This document shows positions 39,362-47,899 of a DNA stretch of 64,000 bases, piece after piece; the stretch's first letter is position 1, and every line of letters begins with the position of its first letter. Source of the DNA: Archaeoglobus profundus DSM 5631 (lineage in GTDB: Archaea > Halobacteriota > Archaeoglobi > Archaeoglobales > Archaeoglobaceae); contig NC_013741.1 in the NCBI RefSeq assembly GCF_000025285.1, positions 558,001-622,000 on the forward strand, written 5' to 3'. The notes under the pieces were generated by a model, which searched no databases, was not told the origin of the DNA, and saw nothing but the letters and a program-made list of their open reading frames with translations. Made by a program: the position numbers and the translations under genes.

Positions 39362-39377
39362 CGAAAAGATTATATAG
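39362..39377 (+). promoter_or_regulatory. Archaeal promoter (BRE + TATA) of the cloverleaf RNA
   Basis: CGAAAAGA (39362-39369) followed by TTATATAG (39370-39377) is a very good BRE-TATA pair. The usual spacing places the transcription start near 39397-39400, exactly at the 5' strand of the first stem of the predicted RNA. Confidence 0.65.
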
Positions 39378-39398
39378 TTTGAAATCTAACTAACTATT

Positions 39399-39514
39399 GG
39401 AGGCGAAGGTCAAATCTCTAAGACTGAAAACCTACGGGTTTTCTAATCTTAGGGATTTGACTGAGAGTGGGTAACCACTCGTTGTTGGCGGTAACATCCG
39501 CCAACAATGCCTCC
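39399..39514 (+). ncRNA. Predicted four-way-junction (cloverleaf) structured RNA upstream of acs
   Basis: Hand folding gives four stems around one junction. P1: GGAGGC 39399-39404 with GCCTCC 39509-39514. P2: 39409-39423 with 39447-39461, 15 pairs with one G-U, then a small internal loop, then 7 pairs 426-432/437-443 closing a C(UACG)G tetraloop. P3: 39465-39470 with 39475-39480 closing a GUAA tetraloop. P4: 39482-39491 with 39498-39507 closing a six-base loop UAACAU. Nearly every base is paired and no protein frame fits. It begins at the predicted transcription start. It could be a free small RNA or the leader (riboswitch) of the acetyl-CoA synthetase gene 106 bases downstream. It is not a tRNA and matches no RNA family I know. 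Confidence 0.7.
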
Positions 39515-39547
39515 TCTCTACATCTTCATACTTAGGACGATTCCGAG

Positions 39548-39581
39548 ACTACACAACGTCTAAATTGTGACTTCGTGTAGT
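39548..39581 (+). promoter_or_regulatory. Competing hairpins between the cloverleaf and acs
   Basis: ACTACAC (39548-39554) can pair with GTGTAGT (39575-39581), a 7-bp stem. The inner CACAA (39552-39556) can instead pair with TTGTG (39565-39569). The two exclude each other because they share bases 39552-39554. This might be a switch or terminator-like element, or chance. Confidence 0.3.
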
Positions 39582-39619
39582 ATAAGTGAGAAATATTTAA
39601 AGTAAATTAGGTGCAAAAA

Positions 39620-41545
39620 ATGTCAAAAAAATTTTCTCAAAAAGATGTATATGAGCCATCGGAAGAAACCAGAAGGTATGCATGGGTTAACAATGAAAGG
39701 ATTTACGAGATGGCTTTAGATTATCTTACATTTTGGGATTCTGTTGCAAAGAACGATATTGAGTGGTTTGAGCCCTACAGAGAGGTGCTCGATAGTAGTA
39801 ACGCTCCTTTTTACAGATGGTTTGTTGGTGGGAAGATCAACATAACCCACAACTGCCTCGATAGACATGTAGAGACAAAAGGAGATAAAACAGCAATAAT
39901 ATGGCAGGGAGAGCCTGAGAACGAGAAGGAGAGGATAACTTACCGCGAACTCTACCGGAGGGTTTGCAGATTCGCCAACGCCCTCAGAGCGCTTGGAGTG
40001 AGGAAGGAAGATGTAGTCACAATCTACATGGGTATGGTGCCTGAGCTACCGATTGCGATGCTAGCATGCGCGAGAATTGGTGCTATTCACAATGTGGTTT
40101 TTGGGGGTTTCTCAGCTACAGCCTTAAGAGATAGAATAAACGATGCAAATTCTAAAGTGGTTGTTACAATGGATGGTTACTACAGAAGGGGTAAGGTTAT
40201 TGAAACTAAACGCATCGTTGATAAAGCTCTGGAGGGTTGCAACGTTGAGAGCGTTGTTGTGCTTGAGAGAATCGGCAATGATGTGAATATGGTCGATGGA
40301 AGAGATGTCTGGTGGCATGAACTGGAAGAAGGTCTTCCTAACAAGTGTGAGTGCAAAGCTCTCGACAGCGAACACACGTTGTTCATACTCTACACATCTG
40401 GAACGACTGGCAAGCCGAAAGGCGTTTTGCACGTTCATGGGGGTTACAACGTTGGCACTCACATTACAACCAAGTGGGTTTTCGATTTGAAAGATAGAGA
40501 TGTATTCTGGTGCACAGCAGATATAGGCTGGATCACTGGACATAGCTATGTTGTCTATGGTCCTCTTAGCAACGGTGCGACCGTGCTAATCTACGAAGGT
40601 GCTCCAGACTATCCACAGCCGGACAGATGGTGGAGCATTATTGAGCAGTATGGTGTGACCGTTTTTTACACTGCTCCCACTGCAATACGCTACTTCATGA
40701 AACTCGGAGAGGAGTGGTTGAAGAAACACAATCTATCTTCGTTGCGTTTGCTTGGAACGGTCGGTGAAACGATAGATCCTAAAGCTTGGAAGTGGTATTA
40801 CAAGTATGTAGGAAACGAGCGATGCCCCGTCATCGACACATGGTGGCAAACAGAAACAGGCATGATCATAATAGCACCTTTACCCGGCATAACAAAGCTC
40901 AAGCCCGGTTCTGTAACGCTTCCTTTCCCGGGAATTTTAGTAAATATACGCGATGAGGATGGAAATCCAGCAGACAGCGGAGAGCTCGTAATAATGAACC
41001 CATGGCCAGCAATGTTCAGGAATCTATGGGGCGAGCCAGAAAGGTTTGTCAAACAATACTGGCGGTTAGATGGCTCGGGTAGACTCATCTACTATGCTGA
41101 GGATGGAGCAAGGAGGGATGGGGACGGATACTACTGGATAATAGGAAGGATCGACGAAGTTCTGAAGGTCAGCGGTCACAGGCTTGGAAGCGCTGAAATC
41201 GAAAGTGCTCTTATATCTCACGAAGCTGTAAGTGAAGCAGCAGTTATCGGTAAGCCCCACGAAATCAAAGGTCAAGTGCCGATCGCATTTGTTGTTCTTA
41301 AGACGGGCTACGAGCCGAGCGTCAAACTTGAAAAAGACCTTAAAACTCATGTTAGAAATGAAATAGGTGCAATAGCCGTACCTGAAGAGATATACTTCGT
41401 CGAACAACTACCAAAGACAAGAAGTGGAAAGATAGTACGTAGGATTCTACTTGCTATCGAGAAGGGCGAAGAAATAGGAGATATCACAACCCTCGAAGAC
41501 GTCACGGTTGTTGAGAGGATCAAGGATGTTAGGAGGGCAAAATGA
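39620..41545 (+). CDS. acs: Acetyl-CoA synthetase, AMP-forming
   Basis: Acs makes acetyl-CoA from acetate, CoA and ATP through acetyl-AMP. Motifs are YTSGTTGKPKGVLHVHGG (P-loop-like), WWQTETGM, GRIDEVLKVSGHRLGSAEIE (hinge and CoA region) and PKTRSGKIVRR with the lysine that is acetylated in many Acs proteins. Length (641 aa from ATG 39620) is normal. TTAGGTG just before the ATG suggests a leadered mRNA; GTG 39611 would add three codons. The structured RNA upstream may control it. Start and end of the gene show no damage. Confidence 0.95.
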   Translation: MSKKFSQKDVYEPSEETRRYAWVNNERIYEMALDYLTFWDSVAKNDIEWFEPYREVLDSSNAPFYRWFVGGKINITHNCLDRHVETKGDKTAIIWQGEPENEKERITYRELYRRVCRFANALRALGVRKEDVVTIYMGMVPELPIAMLACARIGAIHNVVFGGFSATALRDRINDANSKVVVTMDGYYRRGKVIETKRIVDKALEGCNVESVVVLERIGNDVNMVDGRDVWWHELEEGLPNKCECKALDSEHTLFILYTSGTTGKPKGVLHVHGGYNVGTHITTKWVFDLKDRDVFWCTADIGWITGHSYVVYGPLSNGATVLIYEGAPDYPQPDRWWSIIEQYGVTVFYTAPTAIRYFMKLGEEWLKKHNLSSLRLLGTVGETIDPKAWKWYYKYVGNERCPVIDTWWQTETGMIIIAPLPGITKLKPGSVTLPFPGILVNIRDEDGNPADSGELVIMNPWPAMFRNLWGEPERFVKQYWRLDGSGRLIYYAEDGARRDGDGYYWIIGRIDEVLKVSGHRLGSAEIESALISHEAVSEAAVIGKPHEIKGQVPIAFVVLKTGYEPSVKLEKDLKTHVRNEIGAIAVPEEIYFVEQLPKTRSGKIVRRILLAIEKGEEIGDITTLEDVTVVERIKDVRRAK

Positions 41546-41729
41546 TTTATTTATGTAGTATAAACTGCAAACTCTATACTCTTACTTTATCAGCAAAAAT
41601 CCTACTATAAACAGATAATGCTAGTAATTTACCTATAAACGGAGAGCAGACGTATATATTTGCATATATTATTTTAAATCGAAAATATGTAATCGCAAGA
41701 AATAAATATGATGAAAATCAACTATAAAG

Positions 41730-44357
41730 ATGGAAAACAACTTCGAAGTTACGACAGGTAAAAAAGTAGTTCTGGGTACATTTATTGCACTTTTGGTTTC
41801 TTTAGGTATTGCCTTGCATCTTTACACGGAGTTTCTCTGGTTTGAGTCTCTCAATCTCGGTTCTATCTTTATGGCAATGCTGTATTACAAGATTATCTTG
41901 TTCGTAATCTTTTTTGCCTTTGCTCTTGCCATACTTAGCCTCAACCACTTTGCCCTTAAAAGAGTAAGCCACGAGCTAGGTGAATCACTCAAACTGCCAT
42001 TCTGGGTTAATATACTATTAGCTCTAACAGTAGCTTTGATCTTTTCTCGTATGTGGCTTCAGTACGTTTACTTCACAAACTCGGTTGACTTCAACCTTAA
42101 AGATCCGATTTTTGGGCTCGATGTCTCTTTCTACGTTTTCAAACTCCCATTCATTCAGACTGTACTTTTCTTTTTCCTTGCATTGCTCTTGCTTACCATC
42201 TCAATTACAGTAGCGTATTACGCTTTTGTATTCAGAGATGTTAAAAGTTTTGATGAGCTTAAAGATAAATTCCCCCAAACGGGATACGTTCACATCTCTC
42301 TGCTTCTAGCTGGCATTTTTATCTTCATAGCAGTGTACTTCTACTTTGCAAGGTTTGATCTGCTTACATCTCCACACGGAGCTGTAATGGGTGCTGGTTA
42401 TACCGATGTCCACATAAGACTTCCCGCAATGGGACTGATTGCGATACTATCTCTTTTTTTGGCTGTAGCATGTATTTACCTTGGCTATAAACGAAACATC
42501 AATGCTATGCCTATACCCTTCATCATTCTGGCAGTTGTAATACTCCTTTCAATTGTCGTTGCTCCTGCTGTGGTTCAGAAGCTTGAAGTTGAGCCGAATG
42601 AACTTGTTAAAGAGGAGGAATACATACGATACAGCATTGACTTTACGAGGTTTGCTTACGGCTTAAACGTTAATAAAATGTATTACTCTGCCGAGAACAA
42701 CCTCAGCGTCGATACAATTGAGAGAAATCGTGGCACCATAGACAACATTAGAATCTGGGATCACCGTCCTCTACTCAGTGTTTACAGGCAGATGCAGCAG
42801 ATAAGAACTTATTACTTTGTAAATGACGTTGATGTAGATCGTTACTACATTGATGGAAAGTATACACAGATTATGATCTCTGCAAGGGAACTTTCAACCG
42901 ATTTGCTATCGCCAAGAGCAAAAACGTGGCTTAACGAGCATCTAATATTTACTCATGGTTATGGTGTCGTCGCCTCGCCGGTAAATTCCGTAACCAAGGT
43001 GGGGTTGCCAGATCTGATAATTGAGGACATTCCTCCAAAGGGAAAAATAGCTATTGAACGCCCCGAAATCTATTATGGTGAGCTGACAACGAATTACGTG
43101 ATCGTTAAAACCAAACAGAAAGAATTTGACTATCCGTTGGGTGAGGGTAACGTTCTAACAACTTACAATGGTTCTGGAGGGGTTAAGCTCGATTCGTACT
43201 TTAAAAAGCTCATATACGCAATAAAATTCGGCGACGTTAAGTTTCTACTGAGCGATTACATCACAACAGAAAGCAGGTTGATGTTTCACAGAAATATAAT
43301 AGACAGAGTGTCCACGATAGCACCTTTCCTAGTGTATGATAGAGACCCGTATATAGCCATAATAGATGGAAAGCAATACTGGATAATTGATTCATACACA
43401 ACCCTCGACAAATTCCCATACTCTGCAAGATACCCGACATTCAACTACGTTCGAAATCCGGTTAAGGTTTTTGTAGATGCTTACAACGGAACGGCCAAAT
43501 TCTACGTTATTCAGGAAGAACCTGTCATCAGGGTTTTGATGAAAGCGTTTCCAGATCTTTTCATCTCAGCAGATAAAATGAGTGAAGAAGAGAGAGCTCA
43601 CATAAGGTATCCGGTTGATCTGTTCGAGGTTCAGGCACATATTTACGCGACTTTCCACATGGACGATGCAAAAACATTCTACAACCGCGAGGATGTCTGG
43701 GAAATTCCGGAGGAGATTTTTGAGGACGACATAATACAAATGGAGCCCTACTATGTCATTCTGACTCTGCCCGGAAACGACAAGCCGGAGTTCCTGCTAA
43801 TGCTTCCGTTCACCCCTAAGGGAAGGGATAACATCATTGCATGGCTGGCTGCAAGGTGTGATGAGGATTACGGCGAGTTGAGGCTGTATGAATTTCCAAA
43901 AGGACAACTCATCTATGGTCCTATGCAAATAGAGGCGAGAATTGATCAAAATGCTGACATCTCCCAGTTATTCACCCTCTGGGGACAGGTTGGGTCTAAG
44001 GTAATTAGAGGCGATTTGCTCGTTATCCCCATAGAGAACTCAATACTGTACATAGAGCCTATCTATCTGAGGGCTGAAAATGCTCAGATTCCAGAGCTTA
44101 GGGGTGTTATAGTTGTTTACAAAGACATGCTGGCGATGAGACCAACGCTTGATGAGTCTTTGATAGCGGTATTTGGTAAGGAAGCTAAGCCTGAAATCGT
44201 TGAAGAGGAGAGTGTTCAGAATCTTGTGAGGCAATTGGTCGAGCTTTACGACAAGGCAAGGGAGGAAGCAGGGGCTGGTAACTGGACAGGATTCGGTGAA
44301 TACATTGAGAAGCTTGGAAAAACTATTAGCAAGCTAAACGAGACTGCAGGGCGTTAA
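41730..44357 (+). CDS. UPF0182-family large membrane protein
   Basis: The N-terminal third has seven TM helices (about residues 15-37, 48-70, 90-112, 130-165, 185-205, 228-250, 258-280). It includes the family features YTEFLWFESL and DPIFGLDVSFYVFKLPF. A long extracytoplasmic part (about 285-875) follows, with NRGTIDNIRIWDHRPL and FTPKGRDNIIAWLAARCD. Family members in actinobacteria and cyanobacteria are of unknown function. In archaea it is patchy, so transfer is possible. At 875 residues it is nearly full length. Confidence 0.87.
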   Translation: MENNFEVTTGKKVVLGTFIALLVSLGIALHLYTEFLWFESLNLGSIFMAMLYYKIILFVIFFAFALAILSLNHFALKRVSHELGESLKLPFWVNILLALTVALIFSRMWLQYVYFTNSVDFNLKDPIFGLDVSFYVFKLPFIQTVLFFFLALLLLTISITVAYYAFVFRDVKSFDELKDKFPQTGYVHISLLLAGIFIFIAVYFYFARFDLLTSPHGAVMGAGYTDVHIRLPAMGLIAILSLFLAVACIYLGYKRNINAMPIPFIILAVVILLSIVVAPAVVQKLEVEPNELVKEEEYIRYSIDFTRFAYGLNVNKMYYSAENNLSVDTIERNRGTIDNIRIWDHRPLLSVYRQMQQIRTYYFVNDVDVDRYYIDGKYTQIMISARELSTDLLSPRAKTWLNEHLIFTHGYGVVASPVNSVTKVGLPDLIIEDIPPKGKIAIERPEIYYGELTTNYVIVKTKQKEFDYPLGEGNVLTTYNGSGGVKLDSYFKKLIYAIKFGDVKFLLSDYITTESRLMFHRNIIDRVSTIAPFLVYDRDPYIAIIDGKQYWIIDSYTTLDKFPYSARYPTFNYVRNPVKVFVDAYNGTAKFYVIQEEPVIRVLMKAFPDLFISADKMSEEERAHIRYPVDLFEVQAHIYATFHMDDAKTFYNREDVWEIPEEIFEDDIIQMEPYYVILTLPGNDKPEFLLMLPFTPKGRDNIIAWLAARCDEDYGELRLYEFPKGQLIYGPMQIEARIDQNADISQLFTLWGQVGSKVIRGDLLVIPIENSILYIEPIYLRAENAQIPELRGVIVVYKDMLAMRPTLDESLIAVFGKEAKPEIVEEESVQNLVRQLVELYDKAREEAGAGNWTGFGEYIEKLGKTISKLNETAGR

Positions 44358-44452
44358 CGTCAATTCTACGTTGACAGCGATGGATGGAATATGCTACTAC
44401 TACCTGCAGTACGCTTAAGATTTTATACTTCTTTTAGTTTAACTTTATCGAC

Positions 44453-45121
44453 ATGTTCGTAATCCAAGATGAGAAATACTACAACAAGTTTGGAGTTTTC
44501 AGAGACAGAATCGATGCGGGAAACAAGCTCGCCAACTTAATTTTGAAGAATCTTGATGTAGATAAAGATAAAACGGATGTGGTCGCGATACCTGCTGGAG
44601 GAGTTCCCGTAGCTTCGGCAATGGCTAAAAAAATTGGTTTGAAGTTGAAAGTCCTCTTGGTCTCAAAAATCCTATTTCCGTGGACGACCGAAGCTGGTTT
44701 CGGTGCACTAAGCATGTTTAGCGACTTTGAATTGAACGAGGATGCAATTCGCTATTACAACATTAGTGAAGAAGTTGTTGATGTGCAGATAAAGAAGACC
44801 AGAGAAAAGATTGCAAAAAGGCTGAAGATAATTCCTAAGAAATTTTTAATTGGAGAGGGAAATAAGGTTACATTCATAGTTGATGATGGTTTAGCGTCTG
44901 GATATACAATGTTGGTGGCTTTAAAAAGTGCAAGAAGATTTTACGATAAAATATACGTTGCAGTCCCTACAGCTTCTTCGCATGCAATTGACTTAATCAT
45001 CAAAAACTGCGATGGCATTTTCTGCATAAACCTGAGAGATATTTATCCCTACGCGGTCGCTGACGCTTATTTAGAGTGGCACGATATCAGCGATGAAGAG
45101 ATGCTAGAGTTTTTGAAATAG
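44453..45121 (+). CDS. Phosphoribosyltransferase-domain protein
   Basis: A type I PRTase fold is seen: VVAIPAGGVPVASAMAKKIG (residues ~43-62) near the N-terminus and the PRPP loop VTFIVDDGLASGYTML near 140-155. It resembles the archaeal/bacterial group of PRTases of unknown substrate rather than a named purine or pyrimidine salvage enzyme, because no specificity loop is recognised. A TATA-like ATTTTATACT about 28 bases before the ATG suggests its own promoter. Confidence 0.8.
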   Translation: MFVIQDEKYYNKFGVFRDRIDAGNKLANLILKNLDVDKDKTDVVAIPAGGVPVASAMAKKIGLKLKVLLVSKILFPWTTEAGFGALSMFSDFELNEDAIRYYNISEEVVDVQIKKTREKIAKRLKIIPKKFLIGEGNKVTFIVDDGLASGYTMLVALKSARRFYDKIYVAVPTASSHAIDLIIKNCDGIFCINLRDIYPYAVADAYLEWHDISDEEMLEFLK

Positions 45122-45133
45122 CAAAAACTCAAT

Positions 45134-47731
45134 TTAGTTTCTATTTTTATAGAAATTTGTCATATATTTTTCCAGCTCAACGAGGATAAATACTAAAGAA
45201 GATACAGCTACAATTTCGAACCACATACCCGCATCAAGTGGAACGGTGTGCAAAATTTTGTTGAAGTTAGGCAAATACGTCGCTACCAGCTGTAAAGCGA
45301 TCGTTGCGAAGATTCCCAAATACACAGCTTTATTTTTAAACTTAAGAGTCTTTAAAAAACTCAAGTCGATGCTCCTTGAGTTCAGTAGGTAGAATATTTC
45401 AAAAAAGACTATGGTGTTCATTGCAATAGTTCTTGCTATCATCTCGTTATCATCATATCTGAAGTAAAGAAAGTATGCACATGCAACGAGAACTATAGCT
45501 ACCCAGATTATCCTAAATAAAATCGCCGGATTCAGCAACTCCTCAGTCATTGGCTTGAGCTTAAGCAGATTTGGTTCTCTTGGCTCAAAAACCAAAGTAG
45601 TCCCCAAAAGCACAGCCGTGACCGTATTAATCCAGAGAATCTGCACCGGTAAAATCGGGAGTGTGATACCTAAGAGAAAAGCTACAAGAATCACGATCCC
45701 CTCTCCAACGTTGGTTGGTAACATCCATGCAAGAATCTTTTGAATCTTTCTGAAAACGTTTCTACCTTCATCGATTGCTTCTACAATCGTTGCGAAGTTA
45801 TCGTCAAGCAAAATTATTTCAGCCGATTCCTTAGCTACTTCCGTGCCAGATCCCATCGCAACGCCAATATTTGCCCTCTTTAAAGCGGGAGCATCGTTTA
45901 CACCGTCCCCTGTAACTGCAACTATTTCACCCAGTTCTTGCAACAACTTGACTATTCTTAGCTTAACTTTCGGCAATATTCTTGCAAATACGTTCGTTTT
46001 CTTCAATACTTCTTTAAGCTCATCATCGCTCATTTTTTCAATTTCGTCGCCAGTAACAACTTCACCGCTAATGTCGAGCTCTTTTGCAATAAACAATGCT
46101 GTACTGGGATGATCTCCAGTTATCATGATAACTCTTACTCCAGCTTCCTTACACCTTCTAATTGCCTCATAGCATTCCTCCCTTGGAGGATCAATCATGC
46201 ATTGAAGACCGAGAAAGATTAAGTCGTCCAGTTGTTCTTCAATGCTACCGAATTCCTCTAAATTGACAGATTTGTATGCAAACGCCAAAACCCTCAAACC
46301 CTGAAGGGCTAACTCTGACGCAATTTTGTGAATGTTGTGCCTATCAAGCTCTACAACCTTTTCTTCTATTAAAGCCCATCTGCACATTGAAAGAACGGCC
46401 TCCACTGATCCTTTTACATAGATTTCTACCGATTTCCCCTCCTTTACTGCGGTTGCCATGTAGCGTAATGTTGGATCGAATGGGATTTCATCGATAACCT
46501 TAAAACGTTCTTCGATCCCCGTCAGCGATGCCACTTCAAGGAGGGCAATTTCAGTTGGATCTCCGCTCGTTACTGGTTCTCCATCTTTTAGAAAGTAAAG
46601 TGCTTTATTGCACACATACCCGGCCTTTATTGTGAGATAAACCTCAGGATGTTTTGCGAGTTCTTCTCTACCAACTCTCTCAACGTCGTACTCTTTTCCC
46701 CCAGCAAATATCCTTATTACTTTCATTCTATTCTGCGTAAGTGTTCCAGTTTTGTCTGTACATATCGTCGTAACACTTCCTAGAGATTCTACAGCTGGTA
46801 GCTTTCTAACTACAGCCTTTCTTTTTGCCATGTCTCTAACACCGATTGCAAGGCTCATCGTTACGAGAGTGGGCAAGCTTTCGGGGATTGCCGCAACAGC
46901 CAAGCTAACGGAGGCTAAGAACATGAATGTGGGATTGTAACCTCTTAACAATCCAATTGTGAAATTTAAGATTGAAACTGCAACAATTATAAAGAAAATG
47001 AACTTGCTAAGTCGTTTTATTCTGCGTAGCAAAGGTGTTTCAACACCTTTTTCTGTTTTAACTGTCTTTGCGATTTTACCTAACTCGGTATTCTCGCCTG
47101 TAGCAACAACAACGGCTTTTCCATATCCTTCAAGAACTAGTGTCCCGGCAAAAACCATGTTGTTCCTTTCAACAGCTGTCTTCTTTAGAATAGTTTCAGA
47201 AAATTTCTCAACAGGCGTGGACTCGCCCGTTAGCAGAGATTCATCGACAGTTAGATTCTTTACTTCTAAAAGCCTTGCATCTGCTGGAACCTTCGTTCCA
47301 GCTTCTAGTATTATTACATCTCCCGGAACGAGCTCTCTTGCAGGAATTTCTTTTTCAACCTTTCTTATTACTCTTGCTCTAATCTCTACCATCTTTTTTA
47401 AAGATTCAATCGTTTTCTTTGCTTTTCTTTCCTGAACGTAACCAATTACTGCATTTATCAACACGACCAGAAATATTATGATCGTATCTACATATCGACG
47501 AAGGATTGCCGTTATTGTTCCGGATACTATTAAGATGTAAATTAAAGGATCGCTGAAATGAGACAGGAACCTTAAAATTTCGCTAATTTTCTTTTCCTCC
47601 TTAATCTCATTGTAACCATATAACACAAGCCTTCTTGCGGCTTCTTCATCTGTTATACCCTGAGGCGAGCTTTTTACTAACTTAAGAACTTCCGATGTTG
47701 GTATTCTGTACCATTCGATATCTTTTTCCAT
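45134..47731 (-). CDS. P-type cation-transporting ATPase (type II)
   Basis: The 865-residue pump has an N-terminal cation-ATPase domain, TGES (168-171), the phosphorylated Asp in DKTGTLT (326-332), TGDGVNDAPAL near 620 and ten TM helices. The M4 ion-site motif reads AAIPESLP, in place of the PEGLP of Ca2+ pumps. The M5 segment is LAWMLPTNVGEGIVILVAFLLG. Overall similarity is to type II (PacL-like/PMA-like) pumps, but whether it moves Ca2+, H+ or Na+/K+ cannot be decided. It is a single gene convergent with the PRTase gene. Confidence 0.92.
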   Translation of the reverse strand: MEKDIEWYRIPTSEVLKLVKSSPQGITDEEAARRLVLYGYNEIKEEKKISEILRFLSHFSDPLIYILIVSGTITAILRRYVDTIIIFLVVLINAVIGYVQERKAKKTIESLKKMVEIRARVIRKVEKEIPARELVPGDVIILEAGTKVPADARLLEVKNLTVDESLLTGESTPVEKFSETILKKTAVERNNMVFAGTLVLEGYGKAVVVATGENTELGKIAKTVKTEKGVETPLLRRIKRLSKFIFFIIVAVSILNFTIGLLRGYNPTFMFLASVSLAVAAIPESLPTLVTMSLAIGVRDMAKRKAVVRKLPAVESLGSVTTICTDKTGTLTQNRMKVIRIFAGGKEYDVERVGREELAKHPEVYLTIKAGYVCNKALYFLKDGEPVTSGDPTEIALLEVASLTGIEERFKVIDEIPFDPTLRYMATAVKEGKSVEIYVKGSVEAVLSMCRWALIEEKVVELDRHNIHKIASELALQGLRVLAFAYKSVNLEEFGSIEEQLDDLIFLGLQCMIDPPREECYEAIRRCKEAGVRVIMITGDHPSTALFIAKELDISGEVVTGDEIEKMSDDELKEVLKKTNVFARILPKVKLRIVKLLQELGEIVAVTGDGVNDAPALKRANIGVAMGSGTEVAKESAEIILLDDNFATIVEAIDEGRNVFRKIQKILAWMLPTNVGEGIVILVAFLLGITLPILPVQILWINTVTAVLLGTTLVFEPREPNLLKLKPMTEELLNPAILFRIIWVAIVLVACAYFLYFRYDDNEMIARTIAMNTIVFFEIFYLLNSRSIDLSFLKTLKFKNKAVYLGIFATIALQLVATYLPNFNKILHTVPLDAGMWFEIVAVSSLVFILVELEKYMTNFYKNRN

Positions 47732-47899
47732 CTATGCATGTTGTTTACATTTAATAATAACTTTACCTCAAAAGTAGGATCGTAGCTTTCTACCAATTGC
47801 GAGATACTCCCAACTATAAGCACTAGGCAAGCACAAGCGCTTAAATTTTTTCTTCGCCTAAGCAAATAAATCTACAGCCTAAGTTTAATCGAGATGCCA

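Follow-up and report, generated by a model that had tools for sequence, protein, structure and literature searches.

Upstream of the acs gene in the window, the 64,000-nucleotide stretch of Archaeoglobus profundus DSM 5631 DNA analysed here, lies a short segment that a preliminary description, made from the letters alone, regarded as a four-way-junction RNA with its own promoter. The question that it raises is whether the segment acts as a leader of acs or is the gene of a separate RNA. The element (39399-39514, + strand) is probably the gene of a free-standing, trans-acting and highly structured ncRNA, part of a family of the Archaeoglobaceae. This assignment draws on what can be read from the sequences, that is the fold with its covariation and strand specificity, the conserved place of the promoter, the joint duplication of promoter and RNA and the independence from the genes that follow, and it presumes that the element is transcribed. 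The own promoter, the duplication and the independence from neighbours are the properties that point to a separate RNA gene, not to an acs leader.

RNAfold closes 39399-39514 into a four-way junction of -70.5 kcal/mol, against -28.7 ± 3.3 kcal/mol for 200 dinucleotide shuffles (z -12.75; none of the 200 is as good), which is the same closed junction as first proposed. All arms lie on the + strand. P1 has 6 bp, formed by GGAGGC at 39399-39404 and GCCTCC at 39509-39514, and carries double changes in homologues. Junction J1/2, GAA at 39405-39407, is kept in 20 of the 21 aligned copies and is AAA in G009. The P2 arm (39408-39462), seen both by RNAfold and in the alignment, has a 16-bp stem continued by a 7-bp arm with a UACG cap; its basal pair is G·U in 17 of the 21 copies and A-U in the remaining four, and its distal length differs from copy to copy. 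Directly 3' of the U of this basal pair lies J2/3, GA at 39463-39464, and the triplet that follows P2 is GAG in 20 of 21 copies and TAG in G018. P3 (39465-39480) is a 6-bp hairpin with a GUAA loop and double changes in five of its six pairs, and P4 (39481-39508), supported by RNAfold and covariation, has 11 bp and a 6-nt loop, with a basal G·U pair in 19 of 21 copies. No unpaired base separates P3 from P4 or P4 from P1, so that the unpaired bases of the junction are the GAA of J1/2 and the GA of J2/3; they are nearly invariant, in contrast to the distal portions of P2 and P4, which differ between subtypes. The six pairs of P1 and of P3 and the GUAA cap had been described correctly, as had the 7-pair P2 arm, its UACG cap and the 6-base P4 loop; the stems given as 15 pairs in P2 and 10 pairs in P4 are lengthened by RNAfold to 16 and 11.

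The element matches no known RNA class among those compared. No family of Rfam 15 reaches its gathering score in the window, and the element alone, searched at E values up to 10, scores no more than 21.8 bits, with a threshold of 95; the near-threshold matches on it (miRNA families, a nematode sRNA and FsrA) are all far below gathering. The element is also unmatched by Rfam 15 in nine homologue loci, and the paper titles and abstracts searched hold no description of it, so within this Rfam release and these titles and abstracts the impression of an undescribed RNA is borne out. Like a tRNA (RF00005), it is a cloverleaf of four helices, with the fourth arm joined to the closing stem without an intervening unpaired nucleotide. 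Unlike a tRNA, its arms have 16+7, 6 and 11 bp and the window copy lacks an anticodon, a D loop and a T loop; neither ARAGORN nor the tRNA covariance model detects a tRNA in the window, in agreement with the earlier exclusion of a tRNA. A tRNA-like T-arm directly after P1 is found only in the G017-G019 copies (L040, L041, L042, L048), where P1 is followed directly by TCCGGGTTCGAATCCCGG (TCTGGG.. in G018) and then by (G)GYACC, which is a tRNA T-arm sequence without the 5' tRNA half. The tRNA genes of the G017-G019 genomes that share this T-arm have different acceptor ends. Inspection of the alignment reveals no C box, pseudouridylation pocket or ACA tail, and no Rfam match to box C/D or H/ACA RNAs was obtained. 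The compact junction with conserved unpaired bases resembles that of multi-way-junction riboswitches; these differ from the element, which lacks a constant downstream gene or orientation, has its own promoter and ends before the acs homology begins. Closest in kind are lineage-restricted candidate structured RNAs from comparative genomics (PMC2864571 is a survey of this sort), which were also found by covariation and are free-standing; the element differs from them in having no Rfam 15 match and no description in the titles and abstracts searched.

Homologous copies were found by BLASTN in G014, G006, G011, G024, G025, G019 and G017, and all refold into the same junction. Two covariance models, one built from nine copies including that of the window and one from 21 copies, give 22 copies, spread over 14 of the 55 Archaeoglobaceae genomes, a lower bound since the family searches used stricter filters, which can drop weak copies. 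Carrying genomes have 1-4 copies each, and the distribution is patchy: the element was not found in 41 of the 55 genomes, among them the near-complete congener G016. The fold z of the 20 homologues ranges from -2.7 to -8.7, and the predicted RNA length is about 95-130 nt across copies and about 116 nt in the window. Type 1 comprises G000, G006, G011a and G014a, and type 2 comprises G009, G011b, G012a/b, G013a/b, G014c, G020, G021a/b and the damaged G014d; the remaining subtypes are G024/G025, the G017-G019 group and G014b. At L092, L091, L029 and L031 a tRNA gene is found 78-570 nt from the copy, a proximity that may exceed chance expectation.

Outside the family, the covariance model gave no convincing copy in four other genomes of the class or in a sample of the phylum. 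Scanning 84,980 genomes for the pattern yielded eleven loci of the family (same order) and one Pseudomonas locus, which was rejected because the covariance model gives no match there. The weak match in G245 was not accepted; those in G032, G008, G050, G045 and G013:C38 are also weak, and the ones refolded fail to form the structure, while the second match at L035, on the - strand (1577-1682), was discarded as a false, overlapping hit. Searches against viral, phage and plasmid sequences gave no match, in collections that may contain few viruses of this family, and an origin from such elements was rejected on these searches.

Across 27 core pairs in 21 copies, 96.6% of cells are paired compared with 86.9% after shuffling, in an alignment that was fitted to the covariance model and thus leans towards the structure. 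Covariation scores 0.475, whereas structures with slid partners do not exceed 0.157. The independent MAFFT alignment of nine copies gives the same picture (98.9% paired; double changes in 11 of 30 pairs). Judged from compensatory changes on both sides of 18 of the 27 core pairs (84 cells), the structure is kept by selection as an RNA; the compensating changes that had been proposed as a check are present in all four arms. Among pair cells, G-U outnumbers A-C by 62 to 7, so it is the + (sense) strand RNA that is under selection.

The BRE/TATA-like promoter element, gaaaaga ttatatag at 39363-39377 (+ strand), keeps its position in homologues. When only sites that are unsurpassed within 130 nt are counted, a TATA-like site lies 28-32 nt 5' of P1 in 18 of the 20 copies with upstream sequence, against 3.4% after shuffling, the 18 cases not being independent events since copies of the same subtype are related. 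The position is identical even between subtypes whose upstream sequences barely align. The element thus has an own promoter at a fixed distance from its structured start, as a free-standing ncRNA should, and the promoter with a start near the first base of P1 that was predicted for the window has its counterpart in the other copies. Type-2 copies have an inverted repeat, TTGACAAC..GTTGTCAG, immediately 5' of the TATA box. The box is missing from G017a and lies at -23 in G014b, and G014d has deletions around P1 and in P2, so some copies may be inactive. On the 3' side, a pyrimidine-rich flank (39515-39530, + strand) is a weak candidate for a termination zone: in the 21 copies, T+C is 72% in the first 6 nt after the RNA and 68% in the next 6 nt, versus about 50-60% further out.

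Within genomes, promoter and RNA are duplicated alone at unrelated loci, as a unit of 177-283 bp. The two G021 copies (G021a/b) share 177 nt at 96.6% and no similarity beyond, and G014c/d (L054, L088; G014:C1:1051561 and 324942) are a 283-bp duplication with promoter and RNA and none beyond. G017a (L048, G017:C66:3280-3373) matches G017b only from about -5 on, as if it had been copied from a transcript. A repeat-like stretch beside G014c/d raised a CRISPR association, which was discarded as no array was found near any copy.

In the window, a block at 39364-47773 comprises the RNA, acs, UPF0182 and a P-type ATPase; its DNA is 79-88% identical to G014, G011 and G021 where present, with order and orientation changed; in G021, a type-2 RNA adjoins the ATPase. 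The DNA identity of the block is with other genera, unlike that of the genes just upstream of the RNA, which are 77% identical to the congener G016 and about 66% to G014 and G011. From this difference we infer that the acs-UPF0182-P-type-ATPase block was laterally exchanged, with the RNA as its left edge. A comparison with Geoglobus gave no clean empty site, as G026 aligns only through the upstream UbiD gene. UPF0182 occurs without the RNA in other genomes, so a functional link between the two would be conjectural, and no protein family recurs beside most copies, for which reason a constant protein partner gene was rejected.

The gene context decides the question of an acs leader. A cis-acting leader, riboswitch or attenuator, of acs would suit the window, where acs begins about 105 nt downstream on the same strand, and G014, where the RNA also lies upstream of acs, 464 nt away. 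The genes downstream of the copies are unrelated, however, and the next gene is convergent in at least eight copies (G006, G011a, G024, G025, G017a, G017b, G012a and G011b); the acs orthologues of G011 and G019 are not preceded by the RNA, and the similarity of acs between genomes begins only at 39592, 78 nt past the RNA end. A riboswitch would be expected to keep one place and direction in front of the gene or pathway that it regulates; the copies do not, and the riboswitch-like role and link to the acs leader considered in the preliminary description are rejected; a leader is very unlikely. Between the RNA and acs, the window has an inverted repeat, CTACAC...GTGTAG (39549-39580), which is possibly an operator. 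A DNA-level palindrome, such as a recombination or attachment site that makes no RNA, is the least probable of the alternatives, hardly credible although the arms are inverted repeats and some copies lie at the above distances from tRNA genes: the TATA box at fixed distance speaks against it, and a DNA cruciform was rejected on the G-U and A-C counts.

Two other explanations accept the RNA structure and give it a different role. In the first, the most serious competitor though unlikely, the segment would be a mobile or selfish element that is not autonomous, similar to a MITE or carried along by mobile islands, and its RNA structure would do no more than promote its own spread. This explanation would account for the patchy presence with 1-4 copies per genome, the duplication of promoter and RNA at unrelated loci, the place in a shuffled and laterally exchanged gene block and the integrase genes near G013b and G024; against it, inspection of the unit ends reveals no terminal inverted repeats or target duplications, and the strong compensatory selection and conserved promoter despite about 70% identity imply a function of the RNA. 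Some ribozymes share with the element a compact four-way junction whose joints carry conserved unpaired bases. A self-cleaving or other ribozyme built on the junction is nevertheless slightly less probable even than an acs leader, since the conserved unpaired bases are GAA and GA only, no internal loop is conserved and the hairpin loops vary by subtype.

In the preferred reading, that of a free-standing RNA gene, transcription from the TATA promoter would begin at P1 or a few bases away from it, the transcript would end soon after P1 closes, and the RNA would fold into its compact four-way junction. The conserved junction and arm bases would then most likely bind a protein, which would make the product the RNA of an RNP; that the conserved joint bases and the compact stacking form a protein-binding core has about an even chance. 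The outer parts of P2 and P4, which differ between subtypes, may carry loop contacts. In type 2, the P2 loop ACGG is complementary to the P4 loop CCGU in nine of ten intact copies, both being invariant and without covariation, and G020 breaks the match by an uncompensated change. The contact is thus only a possibility in type 2, and a universal one was rejected, complementary loops being confined to that subtype. It is a tentative and rather doubtful proposal that the family is a new class of archaeal RNP RNA, in which a putative protein recognises the junction and contact between the type-2 P2 and P4 loops keeps one RNA, or several, together.

To our knowledge, apart from guide RNAs, tRNA, rRNA, RNase P and SRP RNA, only a small number of structured RNAs have been characterised in archaea other than a handful of model species. 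The element would add a new RNA family with a strong comparative signature and a start site predicted to within a few bases; it is new to the extent of Rfam 15 and of the titles and abstracts searched, and lineage-restricted structured RNAs are already known as a kind. The copy-bearing genomes include cultured species, which we take to be A. profundus, A. sulfaticallidus, A. veneficus and Geoglobus acetivorans, and their presence there makes the RNA directly testable. Its patchy spread with accessory gene blocks raises the question whether a structured RNA can belong to the mobile gene pool of hyperthermophiles.
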